Shown here piece after piece: positions 319-58,153 of a DNA stretch of 64,000 nucleotides. Source of the DNA: Candidatus Gastranaerophilales bacterium (GTDB taxonomy: Bacteria; Cyanobacteriota; Vampirovibrionia; Gastranaerophilales; Gastranaerophilaceae); contig CALUYY010000004.1 in the NCBI GenBank assembly GCA_944325155.1, forward strand, positions 1 to 64,000, written 5' to 3'. The number at the start of each line of letters is the position of its first letter. The first letter of the stretch is position 1. Below the pieces are notes generated by a model that saw only the letters and a program-made list of their open reading frames with translations, was not told the origin of the DNA and did not search any database. The translations under genes and the position numbers were made by a program.

Positions 319-376
319 TATCGACAGTTACGGGCAGATTTCATCAATCTGCCCTTCACTCCGGCTTGCGCTTTTT
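319..376 (+). repeat. Structured repeat, copy 3
   Basis: Same organisation as the copy at 209: hairpin 332-354 with TCATC loop, then a CTCCGGCTTGCGC tail and T-run. The only clear difference is TTCA in place of TGCG at about 355-358. The T-run touches the stop codon of queE (375), so on the plus strand this copy sits exactly at the convergent gene boundary. Confidence 0.75.
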
Positions 377-1037
377 ATCTAAGGTTTAGGAATTTATGCG
401 TTTGGGGAATAAGAAGCGTTGTTTTATGCTTATCATAAAATTTATTATAAATTTCCATAAACGGTTCATCTTCCCTGAAAGGAGTTTTTGGCTGCAAAAC
501 AAGCGGGGTATTATATTTTGAAACAAGATTTAAAATTGAATTTATTTCATCTTCCGTTATTGAAGATGTGAAAACAACTTTTATAAAAACGTCTTTTTTA
601 TACGCAACATCCAAAAATTTTTCATTAATATCAAATTGGTTTATCTGATTTGTTGCGGATCGGATTTTAATATCCATTGCAATAATATCGACTTCATCAA
701 TTATTCTGTCCAATTCATCGGGCAGGGTTCCGTTTGTTTCCAGATAGATTTTTTTATTTAAGTATTTCTTATACTTTTTTAAAAAAGAATCAAGAAAATC
801 AATGCTCATCAAAGGCTCGCCGCCGGTTAAGCTTATAATACCGGCGCCGTATTTTCTTAATTTGTCAAAAAGCTCTTCCTCTTTTAAAACAAGGGTTGAT
901 TTATCAATATAATAATCCGTATCACAATATGCACATTGCAAATTACACCCTGCAAACCTGACAAATACCTGTTTTTCACCGACAAAAATTCCTTCGCCCT
1001 GAACGGATTCAAAAATTTCTTTTATATTTGCCTGCAT
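375..1037 (-). CDS. queE: 7-carboxy-7-deazaguanine synthase QueE (radical SAM)
   Basis: Radical SAM enzyme that converts 6-carboxy-5,6,7,8-tetrahydropterin to 7-carboxy-7-deazaguanine on the route to preQ0 and queuosine. The N-terminus has the family-typical ESVQGEG segment (residues 10-16) followed by Cys31, Cys35 and Cys38 in a CX3CX2C cluster motif, and SLTGGEPL near residue 70. Length (220 aa) fits the family. The start overlaps the end of the J-domain gene by 16 bp, so the two are co-transcribed. Other genes of the route in the window are folE2 (44520) and queA (57110), both far away. Confidence 0.93.
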   Translation of the reverse strand: MQANIKEIFESVQGEGIFVGEKQVFVRFAGCNLQCAYCDTDYYIDKSTLVLKEEELFDKLRKYGAGIISLTGGEPLMSIDFLDSFLKKYKKYLNKKIYLETNGTLPDELDRIIDEVDIIAMDIKIRSATNQINQFDINEKFLDVAYKKDVFIKVVFTSSITEDEINSILNLVSKYNTPLVLQPKTPFREDEPFMEIYNKFYDKHKTTLLIPQTHKFLNLR

Positions 1038-14409: not shown

Positions 14410-14416
14410 CTGGTTA

Positions 14417-14751
14417 AAAGCAGGCGGGTAATTACGCAAAAATTATTTTTTGTGAGGAAAGTCCGAACATCCAAAGTACAGGGCCGCTTGGGAAAGCCAA
14501 GTGCGTGCGAGCGTGAGGAAAGTGCCACAGAAAAGTAGACTACAAAATTTATTTTGTACAGGTGCAACGGTGAGGTAAAAGCTCACCGCCGCTTTTGTGA
14601 AAAAGCGGGTCATGGTAAACCCCAGCCGGATGCAAGTTCAAGTTTGCAAGAAGAATTGTACTTTTCGCTTAATTTTTTTAAGATTGCAAGAAAAGAACGC
14701 ATTAGACAGATGATTACCTTAAACAGAATTCGGCTTACAGCCTGCTTTTTT
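14417..14751 (+). ncRNA. rnpB: RNase P RNA (class A)
   Basis: Catalytic RNA that cleaves the 5' leader of tRNA precursors. Conserved blocks are in order: GAGGAAAGTCCGAACATCC (CR-I, 14454-), GTGCCACAGAAA (14522-), GGTAAACCCC (14612-) and AGACAGATGATTACC (14704-), then the distal strand ACAGAATTCGGCTTACAG. P1 is formed by AGCAGGC (14419-14425) with GCCTGCT (14740-14746), followed by a T-run (14746-14751) that doubles as terminator. About 335 nt. The histidine kinase gene on the other strand ends at 14750, within this T-run. Confidence 0.95.
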
Positions 14752-16537
14752 ATACATTTTGCACAATATCAGATGTTTTATCGGTAAGAGGAATAATAAA
14801 ACCGAAAGTCGAGCCTTTATTTAATTCGGATTCGACAAAAACTTTTCCTTTATGCTGTTTTTCAATTGCAACCTGAACCAGATGGAGCCCGAGACCCGTT
14901 CCTTTAATTGTGTGGGTTGTGTTTTCGGTTCTGTAAAATCTGTCAAAAACTCTGTCCAGACAATCTGGTGCAATTCCTATGCCTTCGTCTTTAACGGAAA
15001 CTTTAACATGGTTTTTATCTTCCGTTAATTCTATCTTAACTTCAATTTTTGAATTATCGGGGGAATACTTAATCGCATTTGTAACAAGGTTATTCATAAC
15101 TCTCTCGATTGCTTCTTCGTTAATTAAAACGGGGGGAATATCATTTTGTTTTACAAATGAAATTTTCATATGTTTTTCATCCGCCAAAACTTTCAGGCCC
15201 ACAAGGGCGCGCTCGATTGTGGATGTTATATCAAGCATTGATTTTTCGATTTTGTTGTCGGCTTCAAGCTTTGTAAAATCCAAAATGTCGTTTACCATTT
15301 TATTTAAATGAACAATTGAATCATTTATTATTCCTATAAATTCTTTTTGTTCATCTTTGCTTAAATCATCGCCGTAGTTATAGAGAGTGTCTATATAGCT
15401 TCTTAAAATCGTAACTGGGGTTCTCAGTTCATGAGAAACGTTTGAGATGAAATCGCTTCTTAATTTATCGACTTCGGCTTCTTTTGTAATATCAATTAAA
15501 ATAATAATGTATCCCAAATAATCATGAACGTTTGAATACATTGAAGATGTAATTGCTTTTATGATTTTATTGTCTACTTTAATTGAAAAAGAAACGGGTT
15601 TAATTTCAACATCTTCCAGAGGCGTATTTTTAAAGGCTTCTATTCCGCTTTTAAAACATTTTGTTCCTTTTGAATCCGTAAAATCCAAAATTGATGTATT
15701 TAAAACAGCTTTATTTAAAAGCTTTTGTGCGGAAGGATTTATAAGAACGACTTTATCAAAACTGTCGCACACAACAACCCCGTTTGCAATACCCATAAGA
15801 ACGGATTCAAATTTGTTTCTCTCAAAGGTCAGCTGGTCAATGTTTTGTTCTTCATATATATGAAGTCTTTGCGACATGTCGTTAAAAGCGCTTATCAGCT
15901 CTTTTATCTCGCCAGATGCCTGTTTATTTTCAAGAATGGTCCCGAAATTTCCGCTTGAAATTTCTTTAACGCCGCGTCTTAAAATTCTTAATTCTCTTCT
16001 GATTAAAATAGCGTTCAGAACAATTACGACCGTATATATAAACCACATCATCGCAAAAACAACAAGCATTGAATTTTTTGTCGTGTTTGAAATTGATTTT
16101 GCAAGATTGGCATTAAGCCCTAATTCCACATATCCCCTTATAACGCCTTTTTCGTTTATAACGGGGGTTGTCAGCGTTGTTTTTGTTTCGGCTTTTCTTT
16201 GAGGATAATCGTATTCGGTTGTATATAAAACGTTTCCGTTTATATCTTTATGGGCTATGTATGAAATATCCGAATTTCCTTCAAGAACAACTTTATCATG
16301 ATATTTAAACACTTTGTTGACGGAATTTTTCGGTATATCTTTAATCATTTCATAGCTTTGAATTGCAATTGTTCTTCCCAAAAGTTGTCCGGAGTTTGCA
16401 TAGTTTTCATAGAGCTTTTCTCTTATCGTATCAATTGCAAAATAAGAAACACCCATAATAAGGGCGGTCGAAACCAAAAGACCCGCTATGATTAATTTAT
16501 TTTGAGCGCTTAAATTGAATTTATATTTTTTTACCAT
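14750..16537 (-). CDS. Membrane sensor histidine kinase (HAMP-PAS-HisKA-HATPase)
   Basis: 595 aa. Two membrane helices (about 13-34 and 157-180) bracket a ~120-residue extracytoplasmic sensor region, followed by HAMP, a PAS domain (about 240-350), the phosphoacceptor SHELRTP near residue 375, and an ATPase domain with N box NLVTNAIKYSP, DEGIGIAP and GTGLGLHL. The architecture matches PhoR/VicK/NblS-type kinases. No response regulator lies nearby, so its partner is encoded elsewhere. The longer reading starts with TTG at 16540; I prefer ATG at 16537, seven nt after a TATAAT box. Confidence 0.9.
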   Translation of the reverse strand: MVKKYKFNLSAQNKLIIAGLLVSTALIMGVSYFAIDTIREKLYENYANSGQLLGRTIAIQSYEMIKDIPKNSVNKVFKYHDKVVLEGNSDISYIAHKDINGNVLYTTEYDYPQRKAETKTTLTTPVINEKGVIRGYVELGLNANLAKSISNTTKNSMLVVFAMMWFIYTVVIVLNAILIRRELRILRRGVKEISSGNFGTILENKQASGEIKELISAFNDMSQRLHIYEEQNIDQLTFERNKFESVLMGIANGVVVCDSFDKVVLINPSAQKLLNKAVLNTSILDFTDSKGTKCFKSGIEAFKNTPLEDVEIKPVSFSIKVDNKIIKAITSSMYSNVHDYLGYIIILIDITKEAEVDKLRSDFISNVSHELRTPVTILRSYIDTLYNYGDDLSKDEQKEFIGIINDSIVHLNKMVNDILDFTKLEADNKIEKSMLDITSTIERALVGLKVLADEKHMKISFVKQNDIPPVLINEEAIERVMNNLVTNAIKYSPDNSKIEVKIELTEDKNHVKVSVKDEGIGIAPDCLDRVFDRFYRTENTTHTIKGTGLGLHLVQVAIEKQHKGKVFVESELNKGSTFGFIIPLTDKTSDIVQNV

Positions 16538-28558: not shown

Positions 28559-30286
28559 TTAATTGCATCTTTTATATTCTTCCAATTCTTGTTTTGCCTG
28601 TTCGCCCAATCGGGTTTCATCATAGTCTTCAGGGAGATGTTCAACGATTTCTTTAAAATTAAAACCGTATTGAAATGCGCTCGGCACCTGAGCACAAACA
28701 TGTTCATATTCACCCGCAACCGAATTAACCGAATGCATAACAGAGGGGCTTATAACCGCAAGATCACCTTCTTTTAGAATTTTAATCTGTGATTTTCCGT
28801 CTTTAACAACATTTAATGCCGCAGCTCCGCTTGTTACAAGATAAATTTCCGTTTGTCTTTTATCTGCACGGTTGGGGTGGGAATGGAGTTTTTCGCCCTT
28901 TCTGAGTGCGCTCATCGGGACTATTTCTTCATCATCCAATTGAACCATTGAAACGCCGACAAAAGGAGAATTTCCGTCTTCGGATTGCATTGCGGTTGAA
29001 TTGGTAACCCAGTTTGTAGCTCCCTGAGTCCAGTTATTTAATTTATGATTCAGATTATAAACCGCTAAATTTCCGTCTATGAATTTTAAGCCCGATAAAT
29101 CATAGCCTGTTTTATTTTGTTTTTTCCAGTTTTCTATGATTTCCCGTTTTTCATCTTCACTGAACCCTTTTTGTTCAAGGGCGGCTGAAAGCGATTCTTC
29201 GTTTCCGTATGCCCTTTTCCAGTAGATGTGGCTTAAGTCTCTTTTATTGTTGTACAAAATGCCCGTTTGTTTCATTTTGGCTATGGTTTCTTCTCCGTAG
29301 CCTTCGGCGGAATTTTTCAGGGCGGCTTTTGTATCTATAAAAGCCTGTCTTGCCTGTTCATATACGGGCATTAATTTTTCAATTTCATCGTCGGTGAAAC
29401 CTTTTTGTCTTAAAACATTAATTTTATGAGCGGGTTTTGAATATGTGTCAAATTTAACATAACCGTCATCTCTTTGTACTATTACACCCGTTTCATATAA
29501 TTTATCCATAAGGGCTTTTGCCTGTTCGACATCTTTTCTTTTTTCTTCATCAAGCAGATGTCTTCTGTTATATAAATCGTTAACAAGATATCCTTTTGAT
29601 TCATTTTTATCAATTCCTATTGATTTCAGGAAATCATAGTCATCGGAATATGAGGGGTCTAAAAATACGCCCGGCGTAAATTCACCGTTATAGAGGTGCG
29701 AATTATAATAAACAAGTTCAAGAAATTTATTTTTTATGTCTTCATTGGAAGCGTTATTTGAATGTCTTTCATACCATTCATAATCTTTTTTGGACATAAT
29801 CATAAAAGGATAGCCTTTTTTGATTTTTACTTTGGCCTTTGTTCCTTCATTTATTAAAATGCCCGAATTTTCGGGAAGCGGAATTTCTTTTCCGTCTTGA
29901 GTATAAAGCGCCCCTTCGCAATTTTTGGGGAAAATTATCTGGGTATCATATTCAAATTCATCATTGTCGCTTAAATAGTCAATGGCTGCCGTTCCGTATA
30001 CGATTTCCGCTTGCGAGTCAAAATCAACAATAAAAGAATGGTTTTCCTCGGTAACTTTCAAAGGAATATCATCTTTATCGCCGGTTATAATAAAAGCTTG
30101 TTTTATTTTGGGGGCATTTCCGGTAAATGAAAGATTGGAAGCATAATTTGCCCTGTATGCGGATGAGGGGATATTTAAAGAAGAATTAAATTCTTCTTTA
30201 TTTTCTTTTTGTGCTTCTTTTGTTTTAACACCCGAAAATGATTGTATATTTGAACTTTGTATAGGATTTATATTTGTTATTTGCAT
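28559..30286 (-). CDS. Cupin-domain protein with SFxG-type N-terminal leader
   Basis: 575 aa. The last ~150 residues are a cupin: LHSHP, then TEIYLV supplies the first metal-ligand set, and ISPSVMHSV the second. Residues 65-170 form another beta-rich region that may be a degenerate cupin. The middle (about 190-400) is helical and charged. The N-terminus is disordered and contains IQSFSG (14-19) and LSFTG (52-56), like the leader of the nucleotidyltransferase at 2070. Cupin enzymes include sugar isomerases, dioxygenases and sensors, so no reaction can be named. Single-gene unit. Confidence 0.68.
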   Translation of the reverse strand: MQITNINPIQSSNIQSFSGVKTKEAQKENKEEFNSSLNIPSSAYRANYASNLSFTGNAPKIKQAFIITGDKDDIPLKVTEENHSFIVDFDSQAEIVYGTAAIDYLSDNDEFEYDTQIIFPKNCEGALYTQDGKEIPLPENSGILINEGTKAKVKIKKGYPFMIMSKKDYEWYERHSNNASNEDIKNKFLELVYYNSHLYNGEFTPGVFLDPSYSDDYDFLKSIGIDKNESKGYLVNDLYNRRHLLDEEKRKDVEQAKALMDKLYETGVIVQRDDGYVKFDTYSKPAHKINVLRQKGFTDDEIEKLMPVYEQARQAFIDTKAALKNSAEGYGEETIAKMKQTGILYNNKRDLSHIYWKRAYGNEESLSAALEQKGFSEDEKREIIENWKKQNKTGYDLSGLKFIDGNLAVYNLNHKLNNWTQGATNWVTNSTAMQSEDGNSPFVGVSMVQLDDEEIVPMSALRKGEKLHSHPNRADKRQTEIYLVTSGAAALNVVKDGKSQIKILKEGDLAVISPSVMHSVNSVAGEYEHVCAQVPSAFQYGFNFKEIVEHLPEDYDETRLGEQAKQELEEYKRCN

Positions 30287-30360: not shown

Positions 30361-31038
30361 TTAACAATTATTCATATTGTTTTTATAAATGTTATATAGC
30401 CCGTCAACCAAAACAAATCTTCCTAAGGGAATTACTTTTGTATAAAAATTAAGAGAATCAACAAAGCATTTATTTTCGCAAAATCCGCCAGATAAATAAA
30501 TTCTGTCCGGACGTTTCGTAAAATTATAAGCATTATATGCAATACCCGATATAAATTTTGAAACGGCAAAAGATGTATCAACCCCGTTTGAAACATCATC
30601 CATAATTTTTTCTAAACCGAATATACCGCAGGTTACGGGGTATTTTTCTTTTGTTGCTTTAAGTTCATTTATATCAAGATTATAAAATTTTAAAAGCATT
30701 TCGATAGTGGCGCCGGTTGCGCTTGCACAGTTTGTATTCCAGTCCATATCTTGAAATTTTGAATTTTTAAATTTTATCCATTTTGCATCTCTTGAACCTA
30801 AATCAAGAATTGTTTCATTTTGAAGTTTTTGTTTATCAACGCCGAATGACAGCGCCACAACTTCGTTTTCATATTTTCCTTTTGTTTTGTCAACGCTGTG
30901 TCCCGTTTTAATTTCAAAATCAATATCCGAATTTTTAATATCCGATGTTTTTATAATCGAGTACTCTTTTTTATCGTTTTGAACTTTTAAAATTTTGCTC
31001 CAGGTTGTACCGGCATCCAGAAAATATACAGGTTTCAT
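30361..31038 (-). CDS. Small ASKHA ATPase, 2-hydroxyacyl-CoA dehydratase activase-like
   Basis: 225 aa. DAGTTWSK (8-15) is the phosphate-1 motif of the BadF/BadG/HgdC fold; LDLGSRDAKWIKF (about 78-90) and YLSGGFCEN (181-189) are phosphate-2 and adenosine motifs. Cys104 (NCASATG) and Cys137 (TCGIFGLEK) correspond to the two cysteines by which an HgdC dimer holds one [4Fe-4S] cluster. Such activases use ATP to push an electron at very low potential into a partner enzyme. It overlaps the upstream gene by 4 bp (ATGA). No classical dehydratase or reductase subunits are nearby, so the target is unknown. Confidence 0.75.
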   Translation of the reverse strand: MKPVYFLDAGTTWSKILKVQNDKKEYSIIKTSDIKNSDIDFEIKTGHSVDKTKGKYENEVVALSFGVDKQKLQNETILDLGSRDAKWIKFKNSKFQDMDWNTNCASATGATIEMLLKFYNLDINELKATKEKYPVTCGIFGLEKIMDDVSNGVDTSFAVSKFISGIAYNAYNFTKRPDRIYLSGGFCENKCFVDSLNFYTKVIPLGRFVLVDGLYNIYKNNMNNC

Positions 31039-31760
31039 CTTAACCTCAAAAATGCTTCAATTTTAGCTCTTGTGGAATTTGAAGAAAGTCCGTCTATATC
31101 AATATATAACCCTTGATATTTATCTGCAAGATATTTTGCAAGCTGATTTTTGGCGCAAAATGTCTGGGCAAAAAAGACCGTTCCGATGTTTTTATCTACA
31201 AATTGTTCAAGTTCCAAATCATAAGGCGACATTTGTTCGACACATCTCATCCAGCCGAAAACATGAGTATCATCGGGAAATAATTCAAGTATCGATAAAT
31301 CATTCGGCGGAACCCCCCAGAAACCAAACGACGGTTTTGTCTGCGGAAGATATGAATAGTCTTTTTGCTCGATTATATTTGCCGTTATTAATTCAACTTT
31401 TTTTCTTAAGGGAAGGTTGCTTGATGAGATATATATTTTATCTTTTTTATACTCTTTTTCTTCAAAAACCGATGTTTCAATTATAAAGCCTTCGTTTTTT
31501 AAAATTTCAACCGCAAAAAGCGCACTGTCGCATTTATCACGGCCTATCGGAGCTAAAATTTTTATAATTCTTTCTTTATAAAAAAGTGCGTTATTAAAAA
31601 TATTTTTTATGATTGAACAATAATTTTCGGGCAGTATTGAAGTTTTGGGGCTGTTAAAATCAACGTCCAAATCAAGCCAGACGGCATTTTTATACTCTTC
31701 TTTCGTTTTTTTAATAAGATTCGGGTGCGGATAACCCCAAAAAGCAATTATATCTTTCAT
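31035..31760 (-). CDS. Partner protein of the activase-like ATPase, with duplicated FWGxP motif
   Basis: 241 aa, not clearly assigned. It contains an internal duplication: FWGYPHPNL (7-15) and FWGVPPNDL (147-155), suggesting two related Rossmann-like halves, as in HgdB/BcrB-type subunits. Cysteines at 48, 77, 173 (MRCVEQ) and 202 (TFCAKNQ) could include cluster ligands. Its stop overlaps the start of the activase gene by 4 bp, so the two are made together. A distant relative of the 2-hydroxyacyl-CoA dehydratase D/BcrB family acting as electron acceptor is the most reasonable inference, at roughly half the usual subunit size. Confidence 0.5.
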   Translation of the reverse strand: MKDIIAFWGYPHPNLIKKTKEEYKNAVWLDLDVDFNSPKTSILPENYCSIIKNIFNNALFYKERIIKILAPIGRDKCDSALFAVEILKNEGFIIETSVFEEKEYKKDKIYISSSNLPLRKKVELITANIIEQKDYSYLPQTKPSFGFWGVPPNDLSILELFPDDTHVFGWMRCVEQMSPYDLELEQFVDKNIGTVFFAQTFCAKNQLAKYLADKYQGLYIDIDGLSSNSTRAKIEAFLRLR

Positions 31761-47579: not shown

Positions 47580-47841
47580 AAAAGCCGCGCCCTGTCTATC
47601 GTTGCAACAAAATATAACCATTCCTTTAAAATATCTCCTTTTTCTTATCAAACACCCGTTAACAACCGTCTTAGTGCTGCTATGTTTCCATCCTGACACG
47701 GTTCGAGGCATAATCGCCGTCTGAATAAAAAATTATCAACAATATTCAAAGTTCAAATCACACTTTCTTGCCCCTCATAACAGGCTCTGCACCCTGCATA
47801 AGCTTCAGGTCAAGAGTACGCAACACCCCGTGAAGCGCGGC
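47578..47841 (-). ncRNA. ffs: Signal recognition particle RNA, large type with Alu-like domain
   Basis: Minus-strand RNA of ~264 nt. The 5' end GCCGCGC (47841-47835) pairs with GCGCGGC (47590-47584), followed by a T-run. The conserved domain IV core GTGTCAGGATGGAAACATAG with AGCAGCACTAAG follows in the middle part (about 47711-47678), with the asymmetric loop and GGAAAC tetraloop typical of bacterial SRP RNA. The long 5' part contains TGTTG, compatible with the UGUNR motif of Alu domains. The length resembles Bacillus scRNA, not the ~110-nt 4.5S form. The T-run overlaps the end of the PadR-like gene. Confidence 0.9.
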
Positions 47842-57109: not shown

Positions 57110-58153
57110 TTATTTTATAAACATGCAATCGCCGTAGCTAAAGAATCTGTATTTGTTTTTAACGGCTTCATTATATGCATTTAAAATAATGTCTTTTGAA
57201 GAAAATGCGGATACAAGCATAATAAGGGTTGATTTCGGGAGATGAAAATTTGTAAGGAGCTTATCCGTTACCTTAAATTTAAAGGGCGGATAAATAAAAA
57301 TGTCGGTTTCATCCGTTACGGGAATTATTTTATTATATTTTTTATAACAGGATTCAAGACACCTTACGGTTGTTGTTCCTATTGATATAATTTTTCCTTT
57401 TTTATTGTTTATTAAATCGGCGGTTTCTTTCGGAATTGTATAGGTTTCTGTGTGCATTTTATGGTTTTTTATATCATGCACTTTAACGGGTAAAAAAGTG
57501 CCTAAGCCCACATTTAAATGAATAAAGCCTGTTTTTACACCTTTATTTTTTATTTTATCAAGTATTTCATTCGTAAAATGAAGTCCTGCGGTAGGTGCAG
57601 CAACGGAACCGTCGAATTTTGCATAAACGGTTTGATAAGTTTCTTTGTCTTTTTCTTCCGCTTCTCTTTGAATATACGGGGGAAGTGGAATTTTTCCCGT
57701 TTTATTTAAAATTTCATTAATATTATTTCCTTCATATAAAAGTTCAACAATATGTTCGGGGATATTTCCGTCAGTTGATTCTTTTTTTTCTTTGATTAAA
57801 ACTTTAAGCTCGTCTGAAATTGTAACTATATCATTATTTTTTAATCTTTTTGAATTTCTGATAAGTGCGCTCCAAAGATTTTTATCCAAAGGTCTTGTTA
57901 AAAAAATTTCAATGTTTGCTCCCGTTTCTTTTTTGCCCTGCAGTCTTGCGGGGATAACTTTTGTGTTATTTAAAATTAAAATATCGTCTTTATCTAAATA
58001 TTCAACGATATCAAAAAAATGTTTGTGCTTAATTTCGCCCGTCAATTTATCCAACACGAGCATTTTTGAATTATCTCTTTTTTCAAGAGGATATTTTGCG
58101 ATTAATTCCTCAGGGAGATTATAATCAAAATCATCCAAAGTCAAATTATTCAT
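57110..58153 (-). CDS. queA: S-adenosylmethionine:tRNA ribosyltransferase-isomerase QueA
   Basis: 347 aa. Adds the ribosyl part of SAM to preQ1 in tRNA to give epoxyqueuosine. Motifs: the N-terminal DFDYNLPEELIA, VIPARL, the AAPTAGLHFT segment, GLGTFLPV, GTTTVRCLES and NFHLPKSTLIML. It overlaps gcvPB by 8 bp. QueE is at 375 and FolE2 at 44520. Confidence 0.96.
   Translation of the reverse strand: MNNLTLDDFDYNLPEELIAKYPLEKRDNSKMLVLDKLTGEIKHKHFFDIVEYLDKDDILILNNTKVIPARLQGKKETGANIEIFLTRPLDKNLWSALIRNSKRLKNNDIVTISDELKVLIKEKKESTDGNIPEHIVELLYEGNNINEILNKTGKIPLPPYIQREAEEKDKETYQTVYAKFDGSVAAPTAGLHFTNEILDKIKNKGVKTGFIHLNVGLGTFLPVKVHDIKNHKMHTETYTIPKETADLINNKKGKIISIGTTTVRCLESCYKKYNKIIPVTDETDIFIYPPFKFKVTDKLLTNFHLPKSTLIMLVSAFSSKDIILNAYNEAVKNKYRFFSYGDCMFIK

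Follow-up and report, generated by a model that had tools for sequence, protein, structure and literature searches.

A candidate ATP-dependent iron-sulfur preQ0 reductase in place of QueF in Gastranaerophilales: a miniature relative of the DCCP and benzoyl-CoA reductase systems

What does an HgdC-like activase do when its gene overlaps that of a protein of only 241 amino acids? The question was raised by a locus in the window, a stretch of 64,000 nucleotides of contig CALUYY010000004.1 from a Candidatus Gastranaerophilales bacterium. The earlier note had described an HgdC-like ATPase retaining Cys104 and Cys137 and overlapping by 4 bp a 241-aa protein with a duplicated FWGxP motif and four cysteines. 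The open reading frames, their coordinates, the motif and the cysteines were all confirmed. Our reading, which we regard as quite probable, is that the two genes, here called A and B, encode an ATP-dependent Fe-S preQ0 reductase which displaces QueF and is a miniature relative of the DCCP/BCR/HAD enzymes. The folds, the cysteine site, the pairing of both genes, the mutual exclusion with QueF and the genomic slot shared with it are strongly supported. The locus comprises the following features:

30361-31038, minus strand: gene A, 225 aa, HgdC/DCCP-R-type ATPase (activase, 'archerase'), predicted to donate electrons to B at the expense of ATP
30727-30729, minus strand: codon of A Cys104 (NCASATG), predicted to bind the cluster that bridges the activase dimer
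30628-30630, minus strand: codon of A Cys137 (TCGIFG), second predicted ligand of the bridging cluster
31035-31760, minus strand: gene B, 241 aa, miniature HgdB/BcrB/DCCP fold, predicted [4Fe-4S] reductase component (predicted preQ0 reductase)
31035-31038, minus strand: stop of B and start of A overlapping by 4 bp, seen in the sequence, translational coupling

The affiliation of A was apparent from several comparisons. A phmmer search matched A to HgdC (1hux) with an E-value of 1.7e-8. The family model TIGR00241 scored 57.8 bits (E 1.2e-15), below its curated cut-off of 125.4 bits, and PF01869 scored 27.5 bits, below its cut-off of 31.5 bits. The GGQD motif is changed to GSRD in A. Cys104 and Cys137 were invariant in 24 homologues and lined up with the activase cysteines of YjiL and of a COG1924 activase. 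By its sequence, A is a divergent branch of the acyl-CoA dehydratase activase family. The AF2 model of A (pLDDT 90.2) matched six activase entries, among them DCCP-R, HadI, HgdC and MbdQ, with Z scores of 19.7-20.5. The best match was DCCP-R (Z 20.5), and pantothenate kinase followed next (Z 17.0). The model thus presents the ASKHA ATPase fold of the HgdC type.

Protein B was less accessible to profile searches. No significant match to B was obtained with Pfam and NCBIfam or in a comparison of a B profile with the sequences of solved structures, and a plasmid search returned no match. The dehydratase model PF06050 (HGD-D) did not match the B protein of the window up to an E-value of 10 and matched one of 28 B homologues (E 0.026). 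An AF2 model of B was built from 28 homologues and reached a mean pLDDT of 89.8. In a VIA comparison the ten best matches of this model were all BCR/HAD/DCCP subunits (including 3o3n, 7yzm, 6eno, 9g87, 8s02 and 9gai) with Z scores of 11.4-13.8 over 226-233 aligned residues, and the next unrelated chain followed at Z 6.1. Foldseek aligned residues 1-241 of B with MbdN, DCCP, HadB and BzdN (E 3e-6 to 2e-4). The model keeps two facing alpha/beta domains with four parallel strands each, at residues 4-7, 27-30, 65-72 and 94-98 in the first and 145-149, 165-168, 194-198 and 218-221 in the second domain. The two FWGxP motifs (residues 7-11 and 147-151) form the first strand-loop of each domain, which explains the apparent duplication. 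The assignment of B to the subunit fold of the BCR/HAD/DCCP dehydratase-reductases is therefore well supported by the model, and the structure comparison with HgdB/BcrB that the earlier note had proposed did reveal a fold relation.

The most conspicuous reduction in B affects the helices. According to both model and alignment, B is devoid of the N-terminal helix and of nearly all of the helical domain; between the two domains the model contains a single helix of 10 residues (118-127), and the alignment shows a gap there. In BzdNO the N-terminal helix and three intermediate helices pack into a bundle that occupies the interdomain groove and contributes to the channel for the CoA tail (PMC11971306). 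Since most of this bundle is missing in B, a CoA thioester is probably not the substrate. Because the helical domain and a PF06050 match are absent from the B of the window and A scored below the curated cut-offs, A-B does not qualify as a classical member of the family.

The four cysteines of B were compared with the cluster ligands of the characterized subunits:

31617-31619, minus strand: codon of B Cys48, predicted cluster ligand at the position of BzdN Cys73 and BzdO Cys95
31530-31532, minus strand: codon of B Cys77, predicted cluster ligand at the position of BzdN Cys100 and BzdO Cys128
31155-31157, minus strand: codon of B Cys202, predicted cluster ligand at the position of BzdN Cys327 and BzdO Cys380
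31242-31244, minus strand: codon of B Cys173, aligned to the distal-subcluster ligand BzdN Cys263, cysteine in most but not all homologues

Cys48, Cys77 and Cys202 were cysteines in all of 124 homologues, Cys173 in 112 of the 124. Both hhalign and an independent E-INS-i alignment placed the three invariant residues on the canonical ligand positions. The hhalign match of B to the BCR/HAD/DCCP family was weak by itself (P 0.02), so that the mapping rests on alignment and fold rather than on measured geometry. In BzdO, Cys95, Cys128 and Cys380 hold a [4Fe-4S]-OH2 cluster, whereas the double cubane of BzdN is coordinated by Cys36, 73, 100, 263, 293 and 327 (PMC11971306). BzdN Cys36 aligned with the invariant Gly9 of B, and BzdN Cys293 had no counterpart. 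With these two positions vacant and four cysteines in total, a double cubane is unlikely in B, which falls short of the six cysteines required for the [8Fe-9S] cluster of DCCP. The natural reading of the sequence is a single cluster site with one open iron.

Classical systems combine the activase with two subunits of about 45 kDa, as the earlier note had stated; this does not hold for all of them, as DCCP and YjiM/YjiL use a single subunit. In its anatomy, A-B is a miniature DCCP/DCCP-R (PDB 6eno, 7yyl) or E. coli YjiM/YjiL system: each consists of an activase and one dehydratase-fold protein, the folds and the three canonical cysteines are common to all, and the YjiM and YjiL genes are neighbours in E. 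coli like A and B. At 241 aa, against approximately 383-421 aa for DCCP and YjiM, B has no N-terminal helix and little of the helical domain; of the three cysteines of the distal subcluster in DCCP, it is missing two or more. Class I benzoyl-CoA reductase (BzdNOPQ, MbdONPQ), HadBC/HadI and HgdABC share with A-B the ATP-driven electron injection by an HgdC-type activase, which is presumed for A, and in BzdO and HadB two alpha/beta domains enclose a 3-Cys [4Fe-4S] site like that predicted for B. Unlike benzoyl-CoA reductase and 2-hydroxyacyl-CoA dehydratase, A-B has a single acceptor subunit where those enzymes have two, no helix bundle for a CoA channel and no visible CoA thioester pathway. Another reduced member of the superfamily of B is the 4-thiouridine desulfidase TudS (DUF523), a [4Fe-4S] protein acting on a modified nucleobase (PMC11971306; PMC10611767). 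TudS differs in comprising one of the two domains only, in having no ATPase partner named in these sources and in transferring sulfur, not electrons.

The pairing of A and B was assessed by their distribution. The searches detected B homologues in 38 of 58 relatives and in 74 of 386 genomes of the phylum, one of the latter (G135) being a spurious match to a sensor histidine kinase. Among the best 80 of 230 B matches, A was located directly behind B on the same strand in 71 loci, and the 4-bp overlap was identical in 47 of these 71 pairs while the flanking genes varied. For eight of the nine remaining loci, A was found elsewhere in the genome. Both genes occurred in 37 of the 58 relatives, A only in G038, where A ends at a contig edge, B only in G053, and neither in 19 (Fisher 4e-13, a value that overstates independence since the relatives share descent). 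G032 and G049 retained both genes in unlinked positions, and the deepest relative found, G068 from another family of the phylum, also has an adjacent B-A pair. Adjacency, co-occurrence and retention when unlinked are strong evidence that A and B work together, and the conservation of the pair across genomes that had been put forward as a check was borne out.

That A activates an enzyme encoded elsewhere, as the earlier note had considered, is not favoured by these results because B has its own cluster site and co-occurs with A; its other suggestion, a minimal reductase, agrees with the activase fold of A and the dehydratase/reductase-subunit fold and canonical 3-Cys site of B. The more specific version, in which A serves a separate dehydratase or the other HGD-D/DUF2229 proteins of the genome with B as an accessory, draws on the presence of two DUF2229/HGD-D-like proteins (L036, L037) and another activase (L031) in the same genome. 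We consider it very unlikely, as B has a complete 3-Cys site and accompanies A, DUF2229 proteins were present in 57 of the 58 relatives regardless of A-B, and the genome provides its own COG1924 activase. A partnership of A-B with DUF2229/HGD-D proteins was rejected on account of this independent distribution. The standard COG1924 activase (L031, 1261-2268) lies next to a rubrerythrin-like gene, and L031, L036 (718-1773) and L037 (601-1737) are mutually distant. In G068, an open frame of 1312 aa (C263:28606) gave a match with the activase profile and may represent a fusion of these proteins.

A connection of A-B to queuosine is indicated by the distribution of QueF, the NADPH-dependent preQ0 reductase. 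QueF was present in none of the 38 B-containing genomes and in 13 of the 20 genomes without B (Fisher 2.5e-8, with the same overstatement by shared descent). The QueF models TIGR03138 and TIGR03139 matched no protein of any B-containing genome, B itself included, and the NCBIfam matches to B with E-values up to 1 included no QueF model. The genera g6, g8 and g10 hold QueF-containing species, identified among the 58 relatives searched for QueF, as well as B-containing species, identified in the wider sample of the phylum; the exchange between QueF and B-A has thus probably happened more than once. A strong QueC match was detected in 53 of the 58 genomes, of which 37 contained B, 13 QueF, none both and three neither. 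Accordingly, QueC was strong in 37 of the 38 B-containing genomes. From the five genomes with no strong QueC, only G006 carries B, and G038 carries A. The three QueC genomes with neither B nor QueF are G007 (82% complete), G050 (66%) and G027 (94%). G027 is a real exception to the rule, which may be explained by an assembly gap, a third preQ0 reductase or preQ1 salvage.

Other genes of the pathway are present in the window itself:

57110-58153, minus strand: QueA (tRNA preQ1(34) SAM ribosyltransferase-isomerase), NF001140 462.8 bits, cut-off 324
375-1037, minus strand: QueE-like radical SAM protein (7-carboxy-7-deazaguanine synthase), tblastn to E. coli QueE 4.8e-11

QueA is 46.6% identical to the E. 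coli protein. The QueE-like protein, which would act in an upstream step of preQ0 synthesis, had QueE as its best NCBIfam match (E 8e-27, below the cut-off). QueC of the same genome lies at L232:9786-10490 (TIGR00364 157.6 bits, cut-off 150.3). QueF was not found in this genome, nor were Tgt, QueD and QueG in the approximately 0.52 Mb of it that were searched. QueC makes preQ0 and QueA acts on preQ1 in tRNA. The presence of QueA indicates that the genome uses preQ1, which then needs a source, and the pathway hole lies exactly at the nitrile reduction. Beside QueC, this genome encodes a DUF366 protein (PF04017, E 2.4e-63; L232:9221-9772), and a similar one adjoins QueC in G050 (L235:5722-6288); DUF366 may belong to the preQ0/queuosine pathway.

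The clue that had prompted this comparison is a genomic slot that A-B shares with QueF; apart from the arrangement described here, the neighbours of B-A revealed no enzyme in common. In nine of the 38 B-containing relatives, from two families (L187-L194, L151), an SDF-family (GltP-like) symporter lies directly upstream of B, and in L187, L192 and L194 a YraN gene after A completes the order symporter-B-A-YraN. QueF fills the slot between symporter and YraN in genomes without B (L197, L198), and symporter, QueF and YraN are contiguous in L238, L240, L241 and L243, the latter with QueF-II. Altogether, 12 of 13 QueF genes adjoin or lie near the symporter and/or YraN. In G033, which has no B, no QueF and no QueC, symporter and YraN touch and the slot is empty. 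As the symporter occurred in 56 of the 58 genomes with or without B, it is a position marker and not evidence of the substrate. Together with YraN it flanks the QueF or B-A slot in many Gastranaerophilales (L187-L194, L238-L246), and its sequence retains DMxRT...N...D, a motif characteristic of carriers for acidic amino acids.

The B-A pair also sits in many other gene contexts, and that of the genome studied here is outside the symporter-YraN slot. In none of the loci inspected did A-B adjoin queC, queE or tgt, and an Rfam search of the window and of 19 slot loci gave no preQ1 riboswitch. Other neighbours, namely OadG with a CitMHS/ArsB-type transporter (approximately 14 loci), glycine dehydrogenase (11) and SNF2 (approximately 6), look lineage-specific and were set aside as functional clues. 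The OadG-like small protein (OAD_gamma) and the transporter are encoded downstream of A in approximately 14 genomes (L065:11617-13212, L078 and relatives). In the window, a 575-aa protein is encoded directly downstream of A (28559-30286, minus strand); its N-terminal motif (NxxxFSG / SFxG) recurs in several Gastranaerophilales proteins. The window also contains a class A RNase P RNA (14416-14753, plus strand) and a bacterial large SRP RNA (47585-47840, minus strand).

These variable contexts, the relatedness of the genomes and DCCP-R as top structural match of A would also suit a general small-molecule reductase or electron sink of the DCCP or YjiM/YjiL kind, unrelated to queuosine, with shared ancestry and locus turnover accounting for the exclusion of QueF; DCCP itself has no known physiological substrate (PMC11971306). 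We judge this unlikely, since the exclusion (0/38 versus 13/20) recurs within three genera, a single slot accommodates either QueF or B-A and is empty in a genome devoid of QueC, and the preQ0 reductase step of B-containing genomes would be left unfilled. The co-occurrence with QueC would also suit a different step of the pathway, for instance the reduction of epoxyqueuosine (the QueG or QueH step); QueG needs cobalamin (PMC4646009), and the order has no corrinoid proteins of the MetH type. Such a role appears quite improbable, given that the nitrile reductase QueF is what A-B replaces, judged by the slot as well as by the phyletic distribution. Reactivation of a corrinoid enzyme by ATP-driven reduction, an activity known from some ATP-dependent activators (PMC6739815), is extremely improbable, as a B12-binding_2 (PF02607) protein was found in none of 57 genomes of the order, and this candidate was disfavoured. 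The earlier idea of an activated enzyme that reduces a cofactor is therefore unlikely to apply to a corrinoid; the gene context points instead to the nucleobase intermediate preQ0.

For the preferred reading of A-B as preQ0 reductase, we infer cluster type, electron flow, substrate and reaction as follows. A would probably form a homodimer in which Cys104 and Cys137 from both subunits coordinate one [4Fe-4S] cluster, and would be reduced by ferredoxin or a similar donor. Coupled to ATP hydrolysis, A would pass single low-potential electrons to the [4Fe-4S] cluster of B, held by Cys48, Cys77 and Cys202, of which one iron would be open for a small ligand or substrate. The gene context suggests preQ0 (7-cyano-7-deazaguanine), free or in tRNA, as substrate, and four one-electron transfers, accompanied by protons, would turn the nitrile of preQ0 into the aminomethyl group of preQ1, a step for which QueF is otherwise responsible. 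DCCP reduces acetylene, azide and hydrazine (PMC11971306), which makes an attack of A-B on a triple bond chemically plausible. QueF belongs to an unrelated protein family and fold, contains no Fe-S cluster and uses NADPH and a covalent thioimide (PMC5372742). Since it needs no ATP, an ATP-driven replacement would be costly, by analogy probably at least one ATP per electron. The predicted reaction (preQ0 to preQ1) and the genomic slot are nonetheless the same, and the distributions are mutually exclusive.

QueF has been presented as catalysing the sole nitrile reduction known in biology (PMC5372742), and no paper linking the BCR/HAD/DCCP family to queuosine was found in the openly licensed literature. 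A-B is likely a second, unrelated biological nitrile reductase, an ATP-driven and oxygen-sensitive system with nitrogenase-like Fe-S chemistry that would represent a CoA-independent branch of the family making preQ1 for tRNA queuosine, a branch to which a biological substrate can be assigned. If correct, biological nitrile reduction would have a second, ATP-driven Fe-S route, the 'archerase' family would gain a member acting on a nucleobase instead of a CoA thioester, and the dehydratase-reductase fold would gain a minimal version of 241 plus 225 aa. For the question of what DCCP-type reductases do in the cell, A-B offers a concrete and directly testable candidate substrate. The proposed reaction would also explain how gut Gastranaerophilales complete queuosine without QueF.
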